NCBI RefSeq assembly: GCF_003149045.1
Contig: NZ_QGDU01000020.1
Location: 1-64,000 of the forward strand
Direction: 5' to 3'
DNA length: 64,000 nt
DNA from: Fibrobacter sp. UWR4
GTDB taxonomy: Bacteria; Fibrobacterota; Fibrobacteria; Fibrobacterales; Fibrobacteraceae
The notes under the pieces were generated by a model, which was not told the DNA's origin, did not search any database, and was given only the letters and a program-made list of their open reading frames with translations. Positions 34,277-43,087 of the stretch are shown piece after piece; position 1 is the stretch's first letter; every line of letters starts with the position of its first letter. Position numbers and translations under genes: made by a program.

Positions 34277-35253
34277 TGAAAAAGGAAAACAAGAATATAG
34301 GTGCCTTTTTATCGGAATATGGCGTGTTTATTGCGCTGGCTATTCTGGTGGTTGTCATCAGTACCATTAGCCCCGAATTCCGTCAGCCGGGCAACTTCCT
34401 GAACCTGTTGCGTCAGGCTTCCTTTAACGGCTTGATTGCATTCGGTATGACTTGCGTCATTCTCAGTGGCGGTATCGATCTTTCCGTAGGTTCCACTTTT
34501 GCATTGAGCGCCATTGTCTGTGCCGAAATGATCGGCCATGGCGTTCCGGTGATTGTTGCGGTTCCCGTGGCGTTGCTGGTGGGCGTGGCCTTGGGCTTGA
34601 TTAGCGGTCTTCTGGTGACCAAGGGCCGTTTGCAGCCCTTCATTGCGACCCTCATTACCATGACGGCTTATCGTGGCATGGCCATGATTCTTACGGATGG
34701 TAAGCCTATTTCCCGCCTGGCAGAAAGTGCTGGGGATGGAGCCTTCCTCTTTAAGGCTCTGGGTAAGGGTAACGTGGTTTGCGACTTCCTGCCGGCTATT
34801 AAAATTCCTATTCCTATCCTGATCCTGTTGGCATCCTTCGGTATCTTCTATTTCTTGCTGAAGCATACCACTTTCGGTCGCCGCCTTTATGCCACCGGTT
34901 CTAACGCCAAGTGCGCTGCACTGTCTGGTGTGAACATCGATCGCATTAAGATGAGCGTCTATGCCATTTCCGGCTTCCTCAGTGCTTTGGCTGGCCTTAT
35001 CATGATTAGCCGTGTGGACTCCGCACAGCCTATCATGGGAAGCGGTTATGAGCTGGATGCTATCGCTGCTGTTGCCCTTGGCGGTACCAGTATGAATGGC
35101 GGTCGCGGAAGAATTGCCGGAACAATTGCTGGTGTTCTCATCATCGCCGTTCTGAACAACGGCTTGAACATCCTGGGTGTCACTTCCTACTATCAGAATG
35201 TGATCAAGGCTGTGGTGATCTTGGTTGCTGTTCTTGCTGATCGTAAGAGATAA
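34276..35253 (+). CDS. rbsC: Ribose ABC transporter, permease
   Basis: A 325-residue inner-membrane permease with about ten hydrophobic segments. LSGGIDLSVGS near residue 55 and the ALGGTSMNGGRGRI loop near residue 275 are hallmarks of the RbsC/AraH family, where the latter contacts the ATPase. It overlaps rbsA by one base and ends 13 bases before rbsB, with AAGGAG in between. Confidence 0.97.
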   Translation: MKKENKNIGAFLSEYGVFIALAILVVVISTISPEFRQPGNFLNLLRQASFNGLIAFGMTCVILSGGIDLSVGSTFALSAIVCAEMIGHGVPVIVAVPVALLVGVALGLISGLLVTKGRLQPFIATLITMTAYRGMAMILTDGKPISRLAESAGDGAFLFKALGKGNVVCDFLPAIKIPIPILILLASFGIFYFLLKHTTFGRRLYATGSNAKCAALSGVNIDRIKMSVYAISGFLSALAGLIMISRVDSAQPIMGSGYELDAIAAVALGGTSMNGGRGRIAGTIAGVLIIAVLNNGLNILGVTSYYQNVIKAVVILVAVLADRKR

Positions 35254-35266
35254 GGAGATTTGCATC

Positions 35267-37042
35267 ATGAAAAGAATTTTTGGTTTACTTTTCGCTTCTA
35301 TGCTGTCTTTGCTGATGGCTGCATGTTCCATTGTCATTGACGGTGAAGAAAAAACCTCTTCGAAGCAGGTGGATTCCAAGGGTGCCATCGGCCTGTCCGT
35401 TTCCACTCTGAATAACCCCTTCTTCGTGACCTTGGTTGAAGGCGCCAAGAAGGCTGCCATTGAACTGAATGCCAACATCACTGTGGTTGACGCTGGCGAC
35501 AACGTTTCCAAGCAGGTCAGTGACATTGAAGACCTGGTGAGCAAAAATGTCGGTATCCTGATTGTGAATGCTGTGGATTCTGATGCTTTGACCGGTGCTG
35601 TAAAGGCTGCCAAGGCTAAGGGCGTGAAGGTCATTAGCGTGGACCGTGCTATCAACGGTGTGGAAGTGGATTGCCAGATTGCTTCCGATAATGTTGCCGG
35701 TGCAGAACTTGCTACCCAGTACATCGTGGACAAGCTTGGCGAAGGTGTTGTTACTGCAGAACTGCAGGGCACCATGGGCTCTTCTGCCGCTATTGATCGC
35801 GGTAAGGGTTTCCACAACATTGCTGATGCAAAGCTAAAGGTTGTCGCTTCCCAGACAGCGAACTTCAATCGCACCGAAGGCATGAGCGTCATGGAAAATA
35901 TGCTGCAGGCCAATGGTGACATTGCTGCCGTATTTGCCGCCAATGACGAAATGGCCCTGGGTGCCGTAGAAGCTAGCAGCGGTGCTGGCAAGAAAGTGAT
36001 GGTGGTGGGTTTCGATGCTACCGACGACGCTGTTGAAGCCATCAAGGCAGGCCGTATGGCTGCAACCATCGCTCAGCAGCCGGGCCTCATTGGTGAAACT
36101 GCTGTTCGCGCTGCAGTGGATCTGAACAACGGCAAGTCCATCGAAAAGAACATCCCGGTGAAGGTTACTCTGGTCACCGCCGAAAATGCTGACAAGCTGA
36201 ATGCCGACAAGCCTGCTTTCAGCGGCACTATCGGCTTGTCTGTCTCCACCTTGAATAACCCCTTCTTCGTGACCCTTGTTGAAGGTGCCAAGAAGGCCGC
36301 TGCCGAACTGAAACTTGGCCTGATTGTGGTTGACGCTGGCGATAACGTTTCCAAGCAGGTTAGCGATATTGAAGACTTGGTCAGCAAGAATGTGACCATC
36401 CTGATTGTGAACGCAGTGGATTCCGATGCTCTGACGGGTGCCGTGAAGGTTGCCAAGTCCAAGGGAGTGAAGGTCATTAGCGTGGACCGTGCCATCAACG
36501 GTGTGGAAGTGGATTGCCAGATTGCTTCCGATAACGTTGCCGGAGCAGAACTTGCTACCCAGTACATCGTGGATAAACTTGGCGAAGGCGTCGTCACCGC
36601 CGAACTTCAGGGAACTCTGGGTTCCTCTGCCGCCATCGATCGCGGTAAGGGATTCCACAACATTGCCGACAAGAAGCTGAAGGTGGCTGCCTCTCAGACT
36701 GCAAACTTCAATCGTACCGAAGGCATGAGCGTCATGGAAAACATGCTGCAGGCCAACGGCAAGATTGCCGCAGTCTTTGCCGCCAATGACGAAATGGCTC
36801 TGGGTGCCGTAGAAGCTAGCAGCGGTGCTGGCAAGAAGGTCATGGTGGTGGGCTTCGATGCTACCGACGACGCTGTTGAAGCCATCAAGGCTGGCCGTAT
36901 GGCTGCAACCATCGCTCAGCAGCCGGGCCTCATTGGTGAAACCGCTGTGCGTACTGCCGCAGATATCGCCAACGGCAAGACTGTGGAAAAGAACATCCCG
37001 GTGAAGGTTACTCTGGTCACTGCAGAAAATGCAGGCAAGTAA
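35267..37042 (+). CDS. rbsB: Tandem two-domain ribose-binding lipoprotein (RbsB-RbsB fusion)
   Basis: A 591-residue substrate-binding protein made of two almost identical type I periplasmic binding domains, residues about 39-319 and 320-591; family members normally have one of about 280. Both copies read GLSVSTLNNPFFVTLVEGAK, VDAGDNVSKQVSDIEDLV, and later SVDRAING and VVGFDATDDAVEAIKAGRMA, so both keep ribose-pocket residues. The period is 843 bp, exactly 281 codons, and the DNA copies remain very similar, implying a recent in-frame duplication. The signal sequence ends in a lipobox (Cys20, MAAC), so the protein is tethered rather than free in the periplasm. The ATG at 35267 has AAGGAG eight bases upstream. 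Confidence 0.95.
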   Translation: MKRIFGLLFASMLSLLMAACSIVIDGEEKTSSKQVDSKGAIGLSVSTLNNPFFVTLVEGAKKAAIELNANITVVDAGDNVSKQVSDIEDLVSKNVGILIVNAVDSDALTGAVKAAKAKGVKVISVDRAINGVEVDCQIASDNVAGAELATQYIVDKLGEGVVTAELQGTMGSSAAIDRGKGFHNIADAKLKVVASQTANFNRTEGMSVMENMLQANGDIAAVFAANDEMALGAVEASSGAGKKVMVVGFDATDDAVEAIKAGRMAATIAQQPGLIGETAVRAAVDLNNGKSIEKNIPVKVTLVTAENADKLNADKPAFSGTIGLSVSTLNNPFFVTLVEGAKKAAAELKLGLIVVDAGDNVSKQVSDIEDLVSKNVTILIVNAVDSDALTGAVKVAKSKGVKVISVDRAINGVEVDCQIASDNVAGAELATQYIVDKLGEGVVTAELQGTLGSSAAIDRGKGFHNIADKKLKVAASQTANFNRTEGMSVMENMLQANGKIAAVFAANDEMALGAVEASSGAGKKVMVVGFDATDDAVEAIKAGRMAATIAQQPGLIGETAVRTAADIANGKTVEKNIPVKVTLVTAENAGK

Positions 37043-37055
37043 GAAGGACTGCAGT

Positions 37056-37946
37056 ATGAAAGTTCTTAATATCGGTTCCATGAATCTTGACCACGTCTAT
37101 AGCGTGGACCATATCATTCTTCCTGGTGAAACTGAAGCAACCGGTGCTGTCAAGCATTATTTAGGCGGTAAGGGAATGAACCAGTCTGTCGCTCTTGCCA
37201 AGGCAGGCGTGGAAGTTTATCAGGGCGGTATGATTGGCGAGGATGGCCAGCCCTTCCTGGATGCCTGTAAGGAATATGGCGTTCATGGAGAATATATCGC
37301 AAAGGTGGATGATCAGACTGGCCATACCATCATCCAGATTGACAAGAACGCCCAGAACAGCATTCTTCTGTATGGCGGTGCAAATCAGCGCTTGACTCAG
37401 GAATATGTGGACGGCGTGCTCAGCCACTTTGAGGCTGGCGACATCCTGTTGCTGCAGAATGAAGTGAACCTGTTGCCTTACATCGTGGACAAGGCCTTTG
37501 AAAAGGGGATGCAGATTGCGTTGAATCCCTCTCCCTTTAACGAGAAACTTGACGCTGTGGACATGACCAAGATCAGCATTTTCCTGCTGAACGAAGTGGA
37601 AGGCAATCAGGTGACGGGCAAGACGGATCCCGACGAAATCCTGGCCGAAATGCGCAAACGTTTCCCAAAGGCTCGCATTGTGCTTACCTTGGGTAAGGAC
37701 GGTGCGGTGTATAGCGACGGCGAAGAGAAGGTGTTCCAGCCCATCTTCCCCGTGAAAGCTGTGGATACCACTGCTGCCGGCGATACCTTTACCGGATACT
37801 TCCTGGCGGGTCTCGCAGAAGGCATGCCCATTGCCCAGGCCCTTCGCATGAGTGCCCGCGCTTCTGCCATCGCAGTAAGCCGCCCCGGCGCCGTACCCTC
37901 TATCCCTCTGCGCAAGGAGGTGGAAGAAGCCTTGGCCAACAGCTAA
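37056..37946 (+). CDS. rbsK: Ribokinase
   Basis: A 296-residue PfkB-family kinase that phosphorylates ribose to ribose-5-phosphate. NIGSMNLDHVY and GGKGMNQSVALAKAG are the N-terminal substrate motifs; VDTTAAGDTFTGYF carries the catalytic Asp and the anion hole. The ATG at 37056 is chosen over the frame open to 37029 because homology begins with MKVLNIGS. It is the last gene of the operon, followed by a strong terminator. Confidence 0.95.
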   Translation: MKVLNIGSMNLDHVYSVDHIILPGETEATGAVKHYLGGKGMNQSVALAKAGVEVYQGGMIGEDGQPFLDACKEYGVHGEYIAKVDDQTGHTIIQIDKNAQNSILLYGGANQRLTQEYVDGVLSHFEAGDILLLQNEVNLLPYIVDKAFEKGMQIALNPSPFNEKLDAVDMTKISIFLLNEVEGNQVTGKTDPDEILAEMRKRFPKARIVLTLGKDGAVYSDGEEKVFQPIFPVKAVDTTAAGDTFTGYFLAGLAEGMPIAQALRMSARASAIAVSRPGAVPSIPLRKEVEEALANS

Positions 37947-37964
37947 GGATAAAACGAAACTCTC

Positions 37965-37996
37965 AAAAGGGAAGGTCAGTTGACCTTCCTTTTTGT
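37965..37996 (+). terminator. Terminator of the rbs operon
   Basis: Long stem GGGAAGGTCA/TGACCTTCCT with flanking A4 and T5. Its 3' arm overlaps a candidate promoter for the tRNA-Ser region. Confidence 0.9.
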
Positions 37997-38008
37997 TTTT
38001 ACTAAATT
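37980..38008 (+). promoter_or_regulatory. Candidate promoter entering the tRNA-Ser repeat array
   Basis: TTGACC (37980-37985), 17 bases, TAAATT (38003-38008), 11 bases before the first tRNA-like copy. The -35 lies inside the rbs terminator arm. Confidence 0.45.
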
Positions 38009-38018
38009 GCGTCAAACT

Positions 38019-38202
38019 GGTCGGGTTGCCAGAGTGGTCGATTGGGCCGGCCTCGCAATCGGTCGTCAGTCACAGGACCGAGGGATCGATTGACTTCGCG
38101 AGAGCCGCAGGCGAACAAAGCGAAGTCAAGGATTCGGAGAAGCCGAACCTGTAAGGCTACGAGCGAAACGAAGTGAGTAAGTAGTCCCATCCCTCACCCT
38201 CC
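38019..38202 (+). repeat. tRNA-Ser-like copy 1 interrupted in the T-loop
   Basis: The 5' two-thirds follow the intact tRNA-Ser below, but the anticodon region is altered (CTCGCAA, then a non-pairing arm). A roughly 98-base insert splits the T-arm between GAGGGATCGA and ATCCCTCACCCTCC. The insert has the hairpins GACTTCGC/GCGAAGTC and GGATTCGGC-GAA-GCCGAACC. The start of the acceptor stem differs (GGTCGGG). It is not expected to work as a tRNA. Confidence 0.85.
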
Positions 38203-38276
38203 TCGGCGCAAGGCGGCGAGAATACGAGAAAACGATAGACAATCATGAAATAAAATACTACATTGCGGCGCATCTC

Positions 38277-38459
38277 GGAGGGTTGCCAGAGTGGTCGATT
38301 GGGCCGGTCTCGCAATCGGTCGTCAGTCACAGGACCGAGGGATCGATTGACTTCGCGAGAGCCGCAGGCGAACACAGCGAAGTCAAGGATTCGGCGAAGC
38401 CGAACCTGTAAGGCTACGATCGAAACGAAGTGAGTAAGTAGTCCCATCCCTCACCCTCC
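38277..38459 (+). repeat. tRNA-Ser-like copy 2 interrupted in the T-loop
   Basis: Nearly the same as copy 1 but with the full acceptor start GGAGGGT. It lies exactly 257 bases before the intact tRNA, and the 74-base spacer after it equals the spacer after copy 1. The spacer carries TAGACA-N17-TACATT, so the copy probably has a working promoter (38236-38264). Confidence 0.85.
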
Positions 38460-38492
38460 TCGGCGCAAGGCGGCGAGAATACGAGAAAACGA

Positions 38493-38521
38493 TAGACAAT
38501 CATGAAATAAAATACTACATT
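38493..38521 (+). promoter_or_regulatory. Promoter of tRNA-Ser
   Basis: TAGACA (38493-38498), 17 bases, TACATT (38516-38521), 12 bases before the tRNA. It is duplicated with the repeat unit. Confidence 0.6.
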
Positions 38522-38533
38522 GCGGCGCATCTC

Positions 38534-38618
38534 GGAGGGTTGCCAGAGTGGTCGATTGGGCCGGTCTCGAAATCCGGAGTCTGTCACAGGACCGAGGGTT
38601 CGAATCCCTCACCCTCCT
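38534..38618 (+). tRNA. tRNA-Ser (anticodon CGA)
   Basis: An 85-nt class II tRNA. GGAGGGT pairs with ACCCTCC, the anticodon loop CTCGAAA gives CGA (codon UCG), there is a long variable arm, and the intact T-arm reads GAGGGTTCGAATCCCTC. The closing base pair of the anticodon stem is a T-T mismatch. Position 73 reads T, where bacterial tRNA-Ser usually has G. No CCA is encoded. Confidence 0.92.
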
Positions 38619-38626
38619 TCAAACGG

Positions 38627-38656
38627 AAAAGAGTACCCCTGTGGGGTACTCTTTTT
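38627..38656 (+). terminator. Terminator after tRNA-Ser
   Basis: Perfect 13-bp stem AAAAGAGTACCCC/GGGGTACTCTTTT with a TGT loop. Confidence 0.92.
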
Positions 38657-38675
38657 CGTTTGTTGAATGCGCTAG

Positions 38676-38816
38676 GATCGAACCCTCGAATAAGAGGGTT
38701 CGATTGACTTCGCGAGAGCCGCAGGCGAACACAGCGAAGTCAAGGATTCGGCGAAGCCGAACCTGAAAGGCAACGATCGAAACGAAGTGAGGGAGTAGTC
38801 CCATCCCTCACCCTCC
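38676..38816 (+). repeat. T-loop insert copy 3 (without tRNA 5' part)
   Basis: Starts with an 11-bp palindrome ATCGAACCCTC/GAGGGTTCGAT that copies the tRNA T-arm, followed by the same insert as in copies 1 and 2 (minor changes near GAGGGAGTAG) and the tRNA 3' end ATCCCTCACCCTCC. A perfect 16-bp-stem terminator follows. Confidence 0.8.
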
Positions 38817-38820
38817 TTTG

Positions 38821-38857
38821 AAACAAATAGGGCGCCTTAATGGCGCCCTATTTGTTT
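38821..38857 (+). terminator. Terminator after insert copy 3
   Basis: Perfect 16-bp inverted repeat AAACAAATAGGGCGCC/GGCGCCCTATTTGTTT with a 5-base loop; symmetric, so it can also serve the minus-strand pectate lyase gene. Confidence 0.9.
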
Positions 38858-38890
38858 CATGAAGACGACATGGGGATGCGAAGCCTCGCA

Positions 38891-38927
38891 GAGGGTTCGA
38901 CAAAACTTGCGAGAGCCGATGGCTCAC
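38891..38927 (+). repeat. Degenerate fourth copy of the T-loop insert
   Basis: GAGGGTTCGA followed by ACTTGCGAGAGCCG resembles the first 30 bases of the insert; it directly abuts the pectate lyase stop codon on the other strand. Confidence 0.5.
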
Positions 38928-40727
38928 CTATTTATTCTTAACAATTCCCTGGTAATTAAATCCTGCGCCAGTCACTTTAACGATATAAAGTCCCTTAGGC
39001 AGATTTCTTAAGGAAATTGCGGAAGATCCGCGCGACGTGAGAGCGCGTGTTCCCTTCATGTCGAAGATTTGAACTTCCATACCTGTGGAGATTCCGAAAC
39101 CTTCCAACGTCACCACACCCGATTGCATGCGGACTCGTGGGGACCTTGTCAATTCCGAGATGATACCATCCGGCGTCGTATCTGTTACAGAAGTATCCTT
39201 CGCAGTCGTGTCGGCGATGGTTGTATCCGCAGAACTAGTATCCGCGGGTGTTTTGAATTCCTTCACTAGGGTCAAGTCGAACTGATCCAGATTGGGGCCG
39301 TCCTTTCCTGCTGCTGTGGCAAATACAATTTCGTTCTTGCCAGCGTTCAGTTCCAGGTTGAATGTCTTTGTGAGCCAAGTGGTCCAGGAAGCTGTTTTCT
39401 CAAAGGTCTGCTCCGTAATGAAATCGCCAACACTAATGGTCAGGGGGCGCGCTTCAGAAGAACCGTTGGTAAAATCCAGGTCCATCTGGTACTCCCCAGC
39501 CTTTTCTACGGTTACCGGAACAGATAAGCTTCCGCCCACATTGAAATTCACATAACCTTTTCCGTGATAGCCTCCGTTGGAACTTTCAAGAATGCCTTCT
39601 GTGATGGTTCCGTCTTCTGCCTGGAATTCCTTAGGCGGTGCGGGAGGTTCCGGTTCCTTGTAGTTGGCGTCGCAAATCGTGGGACTTGCGAGTGTTGCGC
39701 CGGCGCCTGCTCTCACGGCGGCTTCCACGTCATTGACGTTTAGCATGAAACCGGTGTAATCGTAGGGTGGCGTAAAGGATGTGCCGTTGCCTCTGGTATT
39801 TCCCGTGCAGTTGGTGTACTTATTGTCGATGGGTTCTGCAACGCCGATGGTTCCTGAAAGCCCCAGGTAAATAGGTTCGCGCTCGTTAATGAAGTGGTTG
39901 CGTTCGGAACGGATTCTGCACTGTACGCCCGGAGCCATGCCCAAAACGTCGGTGCCTGCAGAAATGTTTGCGTCAGCAGTAATCAGGTTGTTTACCACAT
40001 GGATGTTTCCGAAACGGCAGCGAGGCTTGCGCTGTGCGGCGGCCACCCACCAGTTGAACATGTAGGTAACATTCAATTTGCCTTCGCTTTCGGGTTCTGT
40101 ATCGTTACTGCCGATAAGATTGGAAAGATTGTGAGTGCTGCGCTTCTTGTAGCCGAACTTACACCATGTGAAAGTGACGTTGTCGGCGCCTTTCACTACG
40201 TCAGCGTTGCCGTCCTGGCCATCCCAGAATTCGCAGTGGTCCACCCAGATGTTGCTGGGGTATTTGCCGGAGCTTCCTTCGATGACGATGTTGTCCCAAG
40301 CCTGGTCTGCGTTGGAGCCCGGGCCTTCGATCACGATGTTACGGAGAATGATGTTCTTGGCGGCGCCGGCGATTCGGATACAGGCGTTCAGCTTGGTCCC
40401 AGCCTTCAGGCCGATGATGGTCTTGTTGCTTCCGGAAATGGTGAGGCGGCTGCCGGAACGATTTAGCCAGCCGTCGCCCAAAGTACCATCGATATAGATG
40501 ACTTTCGGAGTGGCGTCCTTTACCAAGTTCTGCAACTGGTCGAAAGTTCTTACTGTATCGGCCTGGACGTTTCCACCGCCGGTTACATCAAAGGCGGTGC
40601 TGGTGCGGCCGCTGCGGGTTGCCCAGCCAATGGGCTTGCACTGGTCTGCTGCGGCGAAAGAAATTGCGGTCAGTGCGGAAATAAGAATGAAGGCCTTTGC
40701 GGCGGTCCTGGAAAACGCTTTTTTCAT
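38928..40727 (-). CDS. Secreted pectate lyase (PL1) with CBM35-like module and T9SS-like tail
   Basis: A 599-residue extracellular enzyme that cleaves pectate by beta-elimination. Signal peptide to about residue 30 (ISFAAA). The PL1 right-handed beta-helix (about 35-345) has IWVDHCEFWDG, VTFTWCKF and the catalytic Arg loop QRKPRCRFGNIHVVNN. A CBM35/6-like jelly roll (about 365-485) begins FQAEDGT. A Thr/Asp-rich linker (about 490-520) follows, and a roughly 75-residue C-terminal domain (VQIFDMKGTRAL, LPKGLYIVKV) resembles Por/T9SS sorting tails. The ATG at 40727 is preferred over one five codons upstream because GGAG stands eight bases before it. Confidence 0.92.
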   Translation of the reverse strand: MKKAFSRTAAKAFILISALTAISFAAADQCKPIGWATRSGRTSTAFDVTGGGNVQADTVRTFDQLQNLVKDATPKVIYIDGTLGDGWLNRSGSRLTISGSNKTIIGLKAGTKLNACIRIAGAAKNIILRNIVIEGPGSNADQAWDNIVIEGSSGKYPSNIWVDHCEFWDGQDGNADVVKGADNVTFTWCKFGYKKRSTHNLSNLIGSNDTEPESEGKLNVTYMFNWWVAAAQRKPRCRFGNIHVVNNLITADANISAGTDVLGMAPGVQCRIRSERNHFINEREPIYLGLSGTIGVAEPIDNKYTNCTGNTRGNGTSFTPPYDYTGFMLNVNDVEAAVRAGAGATLASPTICDANYKEPEPPAPPKEFQAEDGTITEGILESSNGGYHGKGYVNFNVGGSLSVPVTVEKAGEYQMDLDFTNGSSEARPLTISVGDFITEQTFEKTASWTTWLTKTFNLELNAGKNEIVFATAAGKDGPNLDQFDLTLVKEFKTPADTSSADTTIADTTAKDTSVTDTTPDGIISELTRSPRVRMQSGVVTLEGFGISTGMEVQIFDMKGTRALTSRGSSAISLRNLPKGLYIVKVTGAGFNYQGIVKNK

Positions 40728-40790
40728 ATTCAAACACTCCATAACCTAAAGATACATCGGATTTTATGAAAGCTGTTCTGGCAAAATGCG

Positions 40791-40840
40791 AAAAAAGGCG
40801 GTGTTGCGGCCGGAAATCTATCGAATACACCGCCTTTTTT
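40791..40840. repeat. Hairpin element E1 with conserved GGAAATCT loop
   Basis: Perfect 14-bp stem AAAAAAGGCGGTGT/ACACCGCCTTTTTT around a loop containing CGGCCGGAAATCTATC. A similar element is at 40960-41005. Confidence 0.75.
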
Positions 40841-40959
40841 GCGGGTGTGTCGCTAAATCTTGTGAAAATTCGTCATTTTTGACGCCTGATGGGGCTTTTT
40901 TGTTTGGGAAAAAGGCTTTTTTGACCTTAATTTGCCTTTTGTTTGCAGATAAAGTAGGG

Positions 40960-41005
40960 AAAAGGCGGTGCTACGGCTGGAAATCTGTCAAGACCACCGC
41001 CTTTT
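40960..41005. repeat. Hairpin element E2 with conserved GGAAATCT loop
   Basis: Perfect 11-bp stem AAAAGGCGGTG/CACCGCCTTTT around CGGCTGGAAATCTGTC, closely matching E1 in both stem and loop. Conservation of the loop argues against a plain terminator. It is followed by a fragment resembling the 3' end of tRNA-Glu (CTCCAAGCGGTT at about 41046). Confidence 0.75.
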
Positions 41006-41061
41006 GGCGGTTGATACAAAAAGCACCAGGTGCTTTTCGTATAACTCCAAGCGGTTGTATC

Positions 41062-41096
41062 AAAAAAGACATCGCCCTTGCGGACGATGTCTTTTT
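41062..41096 (-). terminator. Terminator of the tRNA-Glu pair
   Basis: Perfect 12-bp stem AAAAAGACATCG/CGATGTCTTTTT, just downstream of the tRNA genes on the minus strand. Confidence 0.9.
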
Positions 41097-41102
41097 CGAT
41101 TC

Positions 41103-41175
41103 TACCTCCAAGCGGTTTCGAACCGCTGTTGCGGGAATGAAAATCCCGAGTCCTGGGCCACTAGACGATGGAGGC
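41103..41175 (-). tRNA. tRNA-Glu (anticodon TTC), distal copy
   Basis: A 73-nt tRNA: GCCTCCA pairs with TGGAGGT (the first pair is G-U), D-arm TCGTCTAGTGGCCCAGGA, anticodon loop TTTTCAT giving TTC, T-arm GCGGTTCGAAACCGC. No CCA is encoded. Identical in sequence to the proximal copy. Confidence 0.95.
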
Positions 41176-41251
41176 GTATGTTTTAAACTTAGCTTTGATC
41201 TCGTTTCATCGCCCAGACGAGACTGCAAACGACCAACTCTAAGTTACTTAA

Positions 41252-41324
41252 TACCTCCAAGCGGTTTCGAACCGCTGTTGCGGGAATGAAAATCCCGAGT
41301 CCTGGGCCACTAGACGATGGAGGC
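41252..41324 (-). tRNA. tRNA-Glu (anticodon TTC), proximal copy
   Basis: Same 73-nt sequence as the distal copy, 76 bases away. The two are transcribed together from the promoter at 41339-41367. Confidence 0.95.
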
Positions 41325-41338
41325 GTTTAGGTAGGCCA

Positions 41339-41367
41339 AATATAGGTAAGGATTTTGTTTTTGTAAA
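41339..41367 (-). promoter_or_regulatory. Promoter of the tRNA-Glu pair
   Basis: On the minus strand: TTTACA, exactly 17 bases, TATATT, 14 bases before the proximal tRNA-Glu. It lies within the start region of the divergent ABC transporter gene. Confidence 0.75.
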
Positions 41368-41374
41368 GGGGGCA

Positions 41375-43087
41375 ATGTCAAAAAAAATTACATTTGGACT
41401 AATGTTTCTTAGAAAGTGGCTGAAAAAATCCTTTTTAGGCGGAATTCTCCGCTTTTTCCCTCTGGCTCTCCTTGCTAGCGGGGCTGATGCGGCCATCCTT
41501 TCTGGCATAAAGTTCTTTATGGAAATTCTTTCGGGAGAATCCTCTGAGGCTTTGTCCCGCTGGGTAATCCTGATGGTGGCCTTGACGGTACTCCGTCTCG
41601 TCTTTCTTTTCCTGAAAGTGCGGACATCCGAACGTTGGCTTTATAATACAAGTAGTCGCGTGACCGCCTGGTTCCTTCATGGACTTCGTAATCTGTCCCC
41701 CCGTGTTTTCCATACGCCTGAGGGTGACAAAAATGTGGAAGCCGCTTACGAGGCTACTCAAGTTTTCCAGACCAACGGGGCGGTCCTTTTCCAGGCGGTG
41801 CAGGCAATCCTCCAGCTGGTGGTATTCCTACCGGTGCTGTGCTTTATCTCCTGGCGATTGACCACTTTCCTTTTCCTGGTCATAGTCCCGGTGGTAAGTT
41901 TTCTCCAGCGGAAACTCCACAAACTCGGTCCCGCCGAGGAATCCCTGCTGTGGGGGCGTTCCAATTTCCGCGGCAGTTTGACCCAGGCCCGTCGCCTATT
42001 CCGCCAATGGAGTTCTTCCCGCGAACGTACCGCGGTTAGCGATGACTTGCTGAAACAGACCCGAATCCTCCGGGACCGTGGTGTGGAAACATCCATTCAT
42101 AAACAGATCCTGTCCCAGATTACGGAAGCGGTTTCCGTGCTGGCCATGGTGCTGGTTCTTGGCTTTTGCGCCCTGCTGATTCAGCGTGGCTGGATGGACG
42201 GCTCCTCCTTGGTTCTTTTCTGTTCTGCAGTCCTCCTGAGTTACAAGCCCGTGAAGGAGTGTGCCCGAGTCATGCCCCAGTATCGTTCCCTCATGAGTGC
42301 CATGAACGTGCTGGAAACTTTTGAATCTCTCCCGAAACGCACCGCTTTTAATGAATTAGTCGGAAGGCAAGGTCCTGAATTAAAAGGTGCGTCGGTGAAT
42401 AAAAAGTCCTTCCATTACGAAGGATCCGAGGCTCCGGTATTTTCTGGATTTGAACTTTCCTGGTCTCGGGAAAAGCCTGTTCTTGTTCGCGGGAAAAATG
42501 GGGTAGGGAAGTCTACCTTCTTGCGTCTCCTGGCGGGTCTTGAACAGTGGGATGACGGCTCCCGAAACGCCTCCCTTTCGGGAACGGAATATAATGTGTT
42601 TTTCGTGGCTCAGGATCTGGAACTCCCTCCCCGCAGGTTCCTACAGAAACTTCTGGAATCCGTTGCCCGCACCCCTACGATTGTTGCAGCTATTACCCGC
42701 TTCCAGCGGACGGCTAATGTAGCGCCTCTTCTTCACAAACCTGGCCTCTCTGGCGGCGAACGTTCCAAGGTCGCTCTCCTCTGGTCTCTCGCTTCCCGCA
42801 GTAAGACCATCCTGTTGGATGAACCTTTTGCATCTATCGCCCTTGTTGACCGCGAACCGTTGCTTTCTGCATTCCTGGACTGCGCGGAGCAGCTGGACAA
42901 GTGGGTGGTAATCGTGAGCCACGATGTTCTTTCGCCTGCCGTGGAAGCCCGCTTCAACGTGGTGACCTTCGACGACGAGCAATCCCGCAATTCCGGCGAC
43001 GAACAGTCCGGAGTAAATGGTGGTGGACAATCCCGGGTGAATGGCGACGGTCGATCCCGAGAAGAAAGCGAAGGGACTTCCCGGTGA
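41375..43087 (+). CDS. ABC exporter, fused membrane and ATPase domains
   Basis: A 570-residue half-transporter of the MsbA-like layout. About five or six membrane segments lie in residues 20-310, and the ATPase has Walker A VRGKNGVGKST (about 370-380), signature LSGGERSKV and Walker B TILLDEPFA. The ATPase is short and has no recognisable Q-loop spacing of canonical exporters, so it is a divergent member. The C-terminal 40 residues are a low-complexity Ser/Gly/Arg tail (DEQSG, GGGQSR). It precedes waaA in a coupled run, so a lipid or envelope substrate is a reasonable guess. Confidence 0.8.
   Translation: MSKKITFGLMFLRKWLKKSFLGGILRFFPLALLASGADAAILSGIKFFMEILSGESSEALSRWVILMVALTVLRLVFLFLKVRTSERWLYNTSSRVTAWFLHGLRNLSPRVFHTPEGDKNVEAAYEATQVFQTNGAVLFQAVQAILQLVVFLPVLCFISWRLTTFLFLVIVPVVSFLQRKLHKLGPAEESLLWGRSNFRGSLTQARRLFRQWSSSRERTAVSDDLLKQTRILRDRGVETSIHKQILSQITEAVSVLAMVLVLGFCALLIQRGWMDGSSLVLFCSAVLLSYKPVKECARVMPQYRSLMSAMNVLETFESLPKRTAFNELVGRQGPELKGASVNKKSFHYEGSEAPVFSGFELSWSREKPVLVRGKNGVGKSTFLRLLAGLEQWDDGSRNASLSGTEYNVFFVAQDLELPPRRFLQKLLESVARTPTIVAAITRFQRTANVAPLLHKPGLSGGERSKVALLWSLASRSKTILLDEPFASIALVDREPLLSAFLDCAEQLDKWVVIVSHDVLSPAVEARFNVVTFDDEQSRNSGDEQSGVNGGGQSRVNGDGRSREESEGTSR

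Follow-up and report, generated by a model that had tools for sequence, protein, structure and literature searches.

What occupies the split T-arms around the tRNA-Ser(CGA) gene of Fibrobacter sp. UWR4, and why do its ends resemble the tRNA beside it? The locus lies in a stretch of 64,000 nucleotides (contig NZ_QGDU01000020.1, positions 1 to 64,000, forward strand), hereafter the window. An earlier note, made from the letters of the window alone, had described an insertion element in the T-loop with tandem amplification, and had offered two interpretations: a miniature element that integrates into tRNA-Ser, or a tRNA-derived family of small RNAs.

Anatomy of the tRNA-Ser(CGA) locus

The locus reads copy 1, copy 2, the intact tRNA-Ser(CGA), a terminator palindrome, copy 3, a second palindrome and a decayed copy 4 (Table 1). 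Nearly all of the anatomy in the earlier note was found again: two pseudo-tRNA-Ser copies with changed anticodon arms precede the intact gene, the T-arm of each is split by the insert at GAGGG(A)TCGA / ATCCCTC, the third insert has a T-arm palindrome before it and the tRNA 3' end after it, and there is a fourth, decayed copy near 38890-38927. At 257 bases the tandem unit has the length that had been stated, its repeats are 98% identical, and TAGACA-N17-TACATT does occur as a promoter-like site in front of copy 2 and of the intact gene. The insert had been given as roughly 98 bases made of two hairpins; the size holds (99 bases), but the hairpins number four. Likewise, the T at position 73 of the intact tRNA is present but is no peculiarity of this gene, T73 being common to tRNA-Ser(CGA) genes across the genus. 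We regard this anatomy of the element as close to certain.

The pseudo-tRNAs of the window are the rarer form of the unit, in which the promoter and the tRNA 5' body are duplicated as well. The upstream copies, which have this form, possess an acceptor-like closing stem, as seen in the fold of copy 2; for the downstream form (copy 3) no promoter-like site of its own was seen in the window. ARAGORN made no call at the copy 1 pseudo-tRNA-Ser, and the covariance models described below missed copy 4. Reading the inserts as spliced T-loop introns fails, since excising them from the window copies would yield a molecule with A54 and an altered anticodon arm, hence no functional tRNA.

The neighbours across 35225-43084 encode a periplasmic sugar-binding protein, a PfkB kinase, a pectate lyase and an ABC transporter, and no integrase gene is among them. 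The sugar-binding protein (35225-37042, 605 aa) consists of two tandem, near-identical periplasmic binding domains of the ribose type (two Peripla_BP_4 stretches) and adjoins the PfkB kinase; the pectate lyase (38928-40742, minus strand), directly behind the array, carries a carbohydrate-binding module and a weak C-terminal match to a secretion tail, below the cut-off.

Table 1. Parts of the tRNA-Ser(CGA) locus, in positions of the window
Feature	Position	Strand	Evidence
Copy 1, pseudo-tRNA-Ser 5' body with altered anticodon arm, to split T-loop	38023-38089	+	90% direct repeat of intact tRNA
Copy 1, split T-loop half GAGGGATCGA	38080-38089	+	
Copy 1, structured core (H1, H2, mini-hairpin, H3)	38090-38188	+	CM match 38080-38201, E 1.1e-27 (R1), 1.4e-21 (R3)
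Copy 1, tRNA-Ser 3' half (positions 59-73)	38189-38203	+	Identical to tRNA 38604-38618
Promoter-like site TAGACA-N17-TACATT, interval between copies 1 and 2	38236-38264	+	
Copy 2, pseudo-tRNA-Ser 5' body to split T-loop	38277-38346	+	257-base tandem repeat
Copy 2, structured core	38347-38445	+	CM match 38337-38458
Copy 2, tRNA-Ser 3' half	38446-38460	+	Repeat analysis
Promoter-like site TAGACA-N17-TACATT of intact tRNA-Ser	38493-38521	+	
Intact tRNA-Ser(CGA), the resident tRNA	38534-38618	+	ARAGORN and Rfam RF00005
Terminator-type palindrome behind tRNA-Ser(CGA)	38620-38662	+	Inverted repeat (arms 20 nt, 95%)
Copy 3, inverted T-arm GGATCGAACCCTCG	38675-38688	+	Exact inverted T5 at most 40 bases upstream of T-arm
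Copy 3, direct T-arm first half GAGGGTTCGA (49-58)	38694-38703	+	Identical to tRNA 38594-38603
Copy 3, structured core	38704-38802	+	CM match 38694-38815, E 1.6e-28; covariation
Copy 3, H1	38704-38743	+	
Copy 3, H2	38747-38761	+	
Copy 3, CCT-GAA-AGG mini-hairpin	38762-38770	+	
Copy 3, H3	from 38772	+	
Copy 3, tRNA-Ser 3' half	38803-38817	+	Identical to tRNA 38604-38618
Second terminator-type palindrome	38819-38859	+	Arms of 18 nt with 100% complementarity
Copy 4, decayed, reduced to T-arm half GAGGGTTCGA and the beginning of H1	38880-38927	+	76% repeat over 34 bases

Distribution of the element

A BLAST search with the core detected it in 21 of 101 genomes, all of one genus and all beside tRNA-Ser(CGA). 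A covariance model built from 17 of these copies (R1) detected the element in 75 of 80 Fibrobacter genomes. The widest model, R3, used on 168 genomes of the phylum with a threshold E of 1e-5, detected it in 76 of the 80 Fibrobacter genomes and, within the same family, in a further 14 that represent eight other genera, and found nothing elsewhere in the phylum; genomes G147 and G161 have a single candidate match each. In group g27 the element is all but missing. The earlier note had allowed that the insert might be unique to its locus, a local duplication; instead, copies occur at many tRNA loci across the family.

Copies away from tRNA-Ser lie behind tRNA-Pro(CGG) and tRNA-Pro(UGG) and carry the T-arms of those tRNAs, and sister genera contribute loci at tRNA-Ala(GGC) and tRNA-Gly(GCC). 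When the T-hairpin pattern GAACNNNNGNANNNNGTTCGA was scanned and 20 regions with palindromic matches were chosen for reading, all 20 proved to lie beside tRNAs, adding tRNA-Gly(CCC) and tRNA-Ala(GGC) in Fibrobacter itself. The resident tRNAs are thus six: Ser(CGA), Pro(CGG), Pro(UGG), Gly(CCC), Gly(GCC) and Ala(GGC). At the loci read, all are specific for Ser, Pro, Gly or Ala, amino acids with class II synthetases, and read G+C-rich codons. In the genome of the window itself, tRNA-Pro(UGG) accounts for two copies and tRNA-Gly(GCC) genes for one or two, in addition to the three at tRNA-Ser and a decayed one at tRNA-Pro(CGG).

Rfam 15 at the gathering cut-off gave no match to the element in the window and seven other loci, where only the tRNA family RF00005 passed. 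A match to sX4 (37.7 of the 70 bits needed) rests on the tRNA itself, and miRNA-type matches in the window, also below the cut-off, are explained by the tRNA or by the terminator palindromes. The only match of a further model, R2, outside the family (genome G087) lies away from any tRNA and has no element flanks, and at two loci with weak BLAST matches (L034 and L038) there is no tRNA directly at hand. No description of the element was found in the openly accessible literature searched, which is no proof of novelty; the family appears to be previously unclassified.

Placement at tRNA genes and matching of the flanks

These T-arm-split elements are a tRNA-anchored hairpin family of Fibrobacter and its sister genera. 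The usual unit lies on the strand of the tRNA and consists of an inverted T-arm, a GNA turn, tRNA positions 49-58, a core some 100 bases long (in order, H1, H2, the C-GNA-G mini-hairpin and H3) and tRNA positions 59-73, and such units repeat in tandem together with the terminator of the tRNA. Of the 147 copies that R2 scored, 137 have an annotated tRNA-Ser(CGA), Pro(CGG) or Pro(UGG) gene on their own strand at a distance of at most 752 bases; of the remaining 10, nine are in loci at contig ends and one is behind a tRNA-Ser with a 14-base duplication that ARAGORN missed. Every copy that could be placed is at a tRNA gene, without dispersal over many intergenic sites. That tRNA-Ser(CGA) (L136:600-720, G043:C112) has its tandem duplication in the variable/T-arm region, either a mutant gene or an assembly error, and the element behind it is intact.

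In all six tRNA species the T-arm is split between positions 58 and 59, after TTCGA. The idea in the earlier note that the T-arm is the target thus passes the test set for it there: copies elsewhere do sit in tRNA T-arms, at the same point of the T-loop. With few exceptions the first downstream unit begins 58-79 bases behind the tRNA, the tRNA terminator lying in between. The flanks follow the resident tRNA: its T-arm 10-mer recurs unchanged in 96 of the 137 copies and its 14-base 3' half is matched exactly in 72, whereas against the other two tRNAs the 3' half has at least three mismatches in every copy. Where the host tRNA-Ser varies (TCTCTCC, ACCCTCC or ACCCC), the elements show the matching variant. 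An inverted T-arm precedes the downstream unit, and many Pro units also have the acceptor 3' strand inverted. Many Pro units, but no Ser units, possess the acceptor 5' strand, so mimicry of an acceptor stem (minihelix) is not general. When the junctions were compared with an integrase overlap, the core was seen to end in GTCCC, GTCTT or GGCA before ATC and not in TTCGA, so that the T-loop overlap lacks identity there.

Fold and pairing of the core

The fold of copy 2 had an energy z of -4.68 relative to shuffled sequences, well outside what chance would give. Covariation supports one secondary structure, as it equally would for a structure of single-stranded DNA. In 140 distinct copies, 95.8% of cells pair and 33 of the 37 pairs show compensatory changes; the covariation score was 0.646 as against at most 0.098 when the partner was slid by 1-3 columns. 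Over the several alignments such a shift lowered pairing from 93-98% to 30-48%. Covarying pairs numbered 23 of 37 with 17 sequences, 31 with 42 and 33 with 140, and 36 in an alignment spanning all six tRNA types; the later ones, being fitted to the model, are biased in its favour, whereas the first (MAFFT, 17 sequences) was not model-fitted, though it had its structure drawn from one of its own sequences.

GNA triloops cap H1 in 115, the mini-hairpin in 136 and H3 in 81 of the 140 copies and are closed by a 5' C-G 3' (or U-A) pair, and H1 and H3 have a common GA-NN-GNA-NN-GA end. Among Ser T-hairpins, 32 of 39 likewise have a GNA cap, all four bases occurring at N, but only 5 of 76 terminators of the same loci do. 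Of the element pairs outside the T-stem, 1.0% (43/4213) are G-T and 0.5% (20) are A-C, while G-T makes up 7.5% of the pairs in the acceptor and T stems of the tRNAs and 5.2% of those in the terminators, again at the same loci; the loop and G-T comparisons both treat related sequences as independent. Loops of the C-GNA-G type, such as d(GCGAAGC), form extraordinarily stable DNA mini-hairpins (PMC4686876). The GNA caps and the scarcity of G-T, unlike the state of tRNA stems and terminators beside them, indicate, short of proof, a folded single-stranded DNA, and together with the position behind the terminator they make DNA likelier than RNA. The promoter-like site at the upstream copies speaks against a DNA reading, and both the restriction of the GNA preference to the sense strand and the excess of G-T over A-C would fit RNA too. 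Because it is the sense strand that shows the GNA preference, there are simpler pictures than a symmetric cruciform. The loop motifs GA-RC-GNA-GY-GA (H1 and H3) and CCCGNAGGG are conserved across genera and tRNA types.

Descent, arrays and decay

A tree of the cores alone required 8 changes of tRNA label (minimum 2; shuffled mean 54.5), although it has few columns and many open forks; so small a number suggests that copies mainly descend with their tRNA locus. The tandem block of about 200 bases comprises tRNA 3' half, terminator, inverted T-arm, T-arm and core, and recombination between the 3' halves can lengthen or shorten arrays. At L010:1625-2100, as at further tRNA-Ser loci, the full unit is followed by repeated short part-units, each made of an inverted tRNA 3' half, the H3 hairpin and a direct 3' half, as though the element were built up or worn down in hairpin modules. 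The lost copies seen were decayed, and none was cleanly excised. One Fibrobacter genome (G106) showed a shortened remnant at tRNA-Pro(UGG), a single weak match that is unplaced, and nothing more, so the full element seems dispensable and its loss resembles decay. The tRNA-Glu gene of the window (41103-41175, minus strand) has, 46 bases downstream and flanked by two terminators, an echo of its own 3' half (41042-41056, 14 of 15 bases) with no insert, perhaps a bare first step or a last remnant of the same process.

The phage, plasmid and viral (IMG/VR) collections searched contained no carrier of the element; 11 viral contigs with a short motif gave weak CM scores, at about chance level for stretches picked by motif. 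The Y1 transposase domain PF01797 is absent from five element carriers of 99-100% completeness (G003, G010, G014, G045 and G108), which rules out a Y1/RAYT transposase as helper in those genomes.

Discussion

We propose, with a probability of roughly 0.45, that the active form of the element is its folded sense strand, likelier as DNA than as RNA, and that fold-back copying together with recombination with the tRNA keeps its ends matched. The sense strand would act folded and single-stranded, most likely as DNA, with the GNA-capped hairpins as the places where it folds back. The resident T-arm would be copied into the element, both directly and inverted, by template switching or by recombination with the tRNA across the 3' half that the two have in common, and the same copying would keep stems perfect and flanks matched and would multiply or shorten the arrays. 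Fold-back copying alone does not suffice for the conserved internal motifs of H1 and H3, which need further selection, and the conserved hairpin caps suggest an additional binding partner. More tentatively still, the family may constitute a new class of genetic element, found only behind tRNA genes, which folds as a single strand through DNA-type GNA hairpins, continually copies the resident T-arm into both its ends and, from one ancestor, has become adapted throughout a bacterial family to six or more tRNA species.

The element could instead be a functional structured RNA. It would be transcribed as a 3' trailer of the tRNA, or from the duplicated upstream tRNA promoters, would be processed by tRNA enzymes at the tRNA 3' half, and would serve as a small RNA or as a decoy for an enzyme that processes or modifies tRNA. 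Its strong covariation, its location on the strand of the tRNA, the promoter and acceptor-like closing stem kept in upstream copies and the 43 G-T against 20 A-C pairs all agree with such an RNA, whereas a strong terminator precedes most copies, G-T stands at about 1% where tRNA stems and terminators of the same loci have 5-7%, the caps are triloops where the terminators have loops of 4-5 bases, and Rfam holds no match. The loop and base-pair statistics speak mildly against a small-RNA family, and we consider a functional RNA somewhat less likely than the DNA form. The identical 58/59 split in six tRNA species would also follow if an integrase or single-strand DNA recombinase acting at the T-loop had placed the core in several tRNAs, in which case the displaced 3' halves, standing as tandem direct repeats, would be att repeats; T-loops are known integrase targets, for which Williams 2002 is cited in PMC2647930. 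The core end, however, has only AT in common with the T-loop overlap, and the miniature integrating element offered by the earlier note is not supported as a present-day activity: copies cluster by, and descend with, their tRNA locus, loss was seen as decay and never as a clean empty site, there are no phage, plasmid or viral carriers, and Y1 is absent from the five near-complete genomes. A miniature site-specific mobile element, or its remains, is hence improbable, and the interpretation of the earlier note as a whole is partly supported. Finally, repeated replication fold-backs at tRNA terminators might make and correct palindromes with no selected function. Palindromes throughout, nearly perfect stems, arrays with part copies of H3 and 3' half only and the bare echo at tRNA-Glu are what such a neutral process would leave, but copying of stems cannot explain loop motifs conserved across genera and tRNA types, and together with the presence of the element in 76 of 80 Fibrobacter genomes this makes a purely neutral origin very unlikely.

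The element lets two questions be put to direct test: whether bacteria harbour selected single-stranded DNA (or RNA) hairpins beyond the known transposon, integron and phage systems, and by what route the 3' ends of tRNAs turn into places of insertion and tandem repetition. It is a conserved, covarying element of nearly every Fibrobacter genome, has no Rfam match, and is of strange anatomy, both its ends coming from the neighbouring tRNA, direct and inverted, and cut at a constant T-loop position. Fibrobacter is among the main cellulose degraders of the rumen, and the element is thus present in well-studied communities.

Comparison with known systems

Small palindromic inserts such as the Rickettsia palindromic elements are spread into many genes; the present element is likewise small and palindromic, but it has a fixed T-loop placement and matches its host tRNA. 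With the T-loop attachment sites of tyrosine recombinases it shares the split T-loop and the displaced tRNA 3' half, and differs in having no cargo, no overlap identity, no integrase near the window locus and an inverted T-arm in front. Integron attC sites are recombination sites of folded single-stranded DNA, imperfect palindromes that occur in arrays and conserve structure over sequence; the element resembles them in its structurally conserved imperfect palindromes and its arrays, and by eye has no R or L boxes. REP/BIME sequences with their RAYT (TnpA_REP, Y1) are also short non-coding hairpin units behind genes for which folding of single-stranded DNA is plausible, whereas the element is not dispersed, is confined to tRNA genes, needs no Y1 transposase and has tRNA-derived flanks. 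The rtT repeats behind Escherichia coli tyrT, tandem copies of the tRNA 3' end with a spacer, known from one tRNA in one lineage, share with the element direct repeats of the tRNA 3' end behind a tRNA gene; they are not known to have an inverted T-arm or a conserved multi-hairpin core, or to occur at several tRNA species, and no rtT family was among the Rfam matches. On the whole, the element works most like rtT-type repeats of tRNA 3' ends combined with REP-like hairpins of single-stranded DNA.
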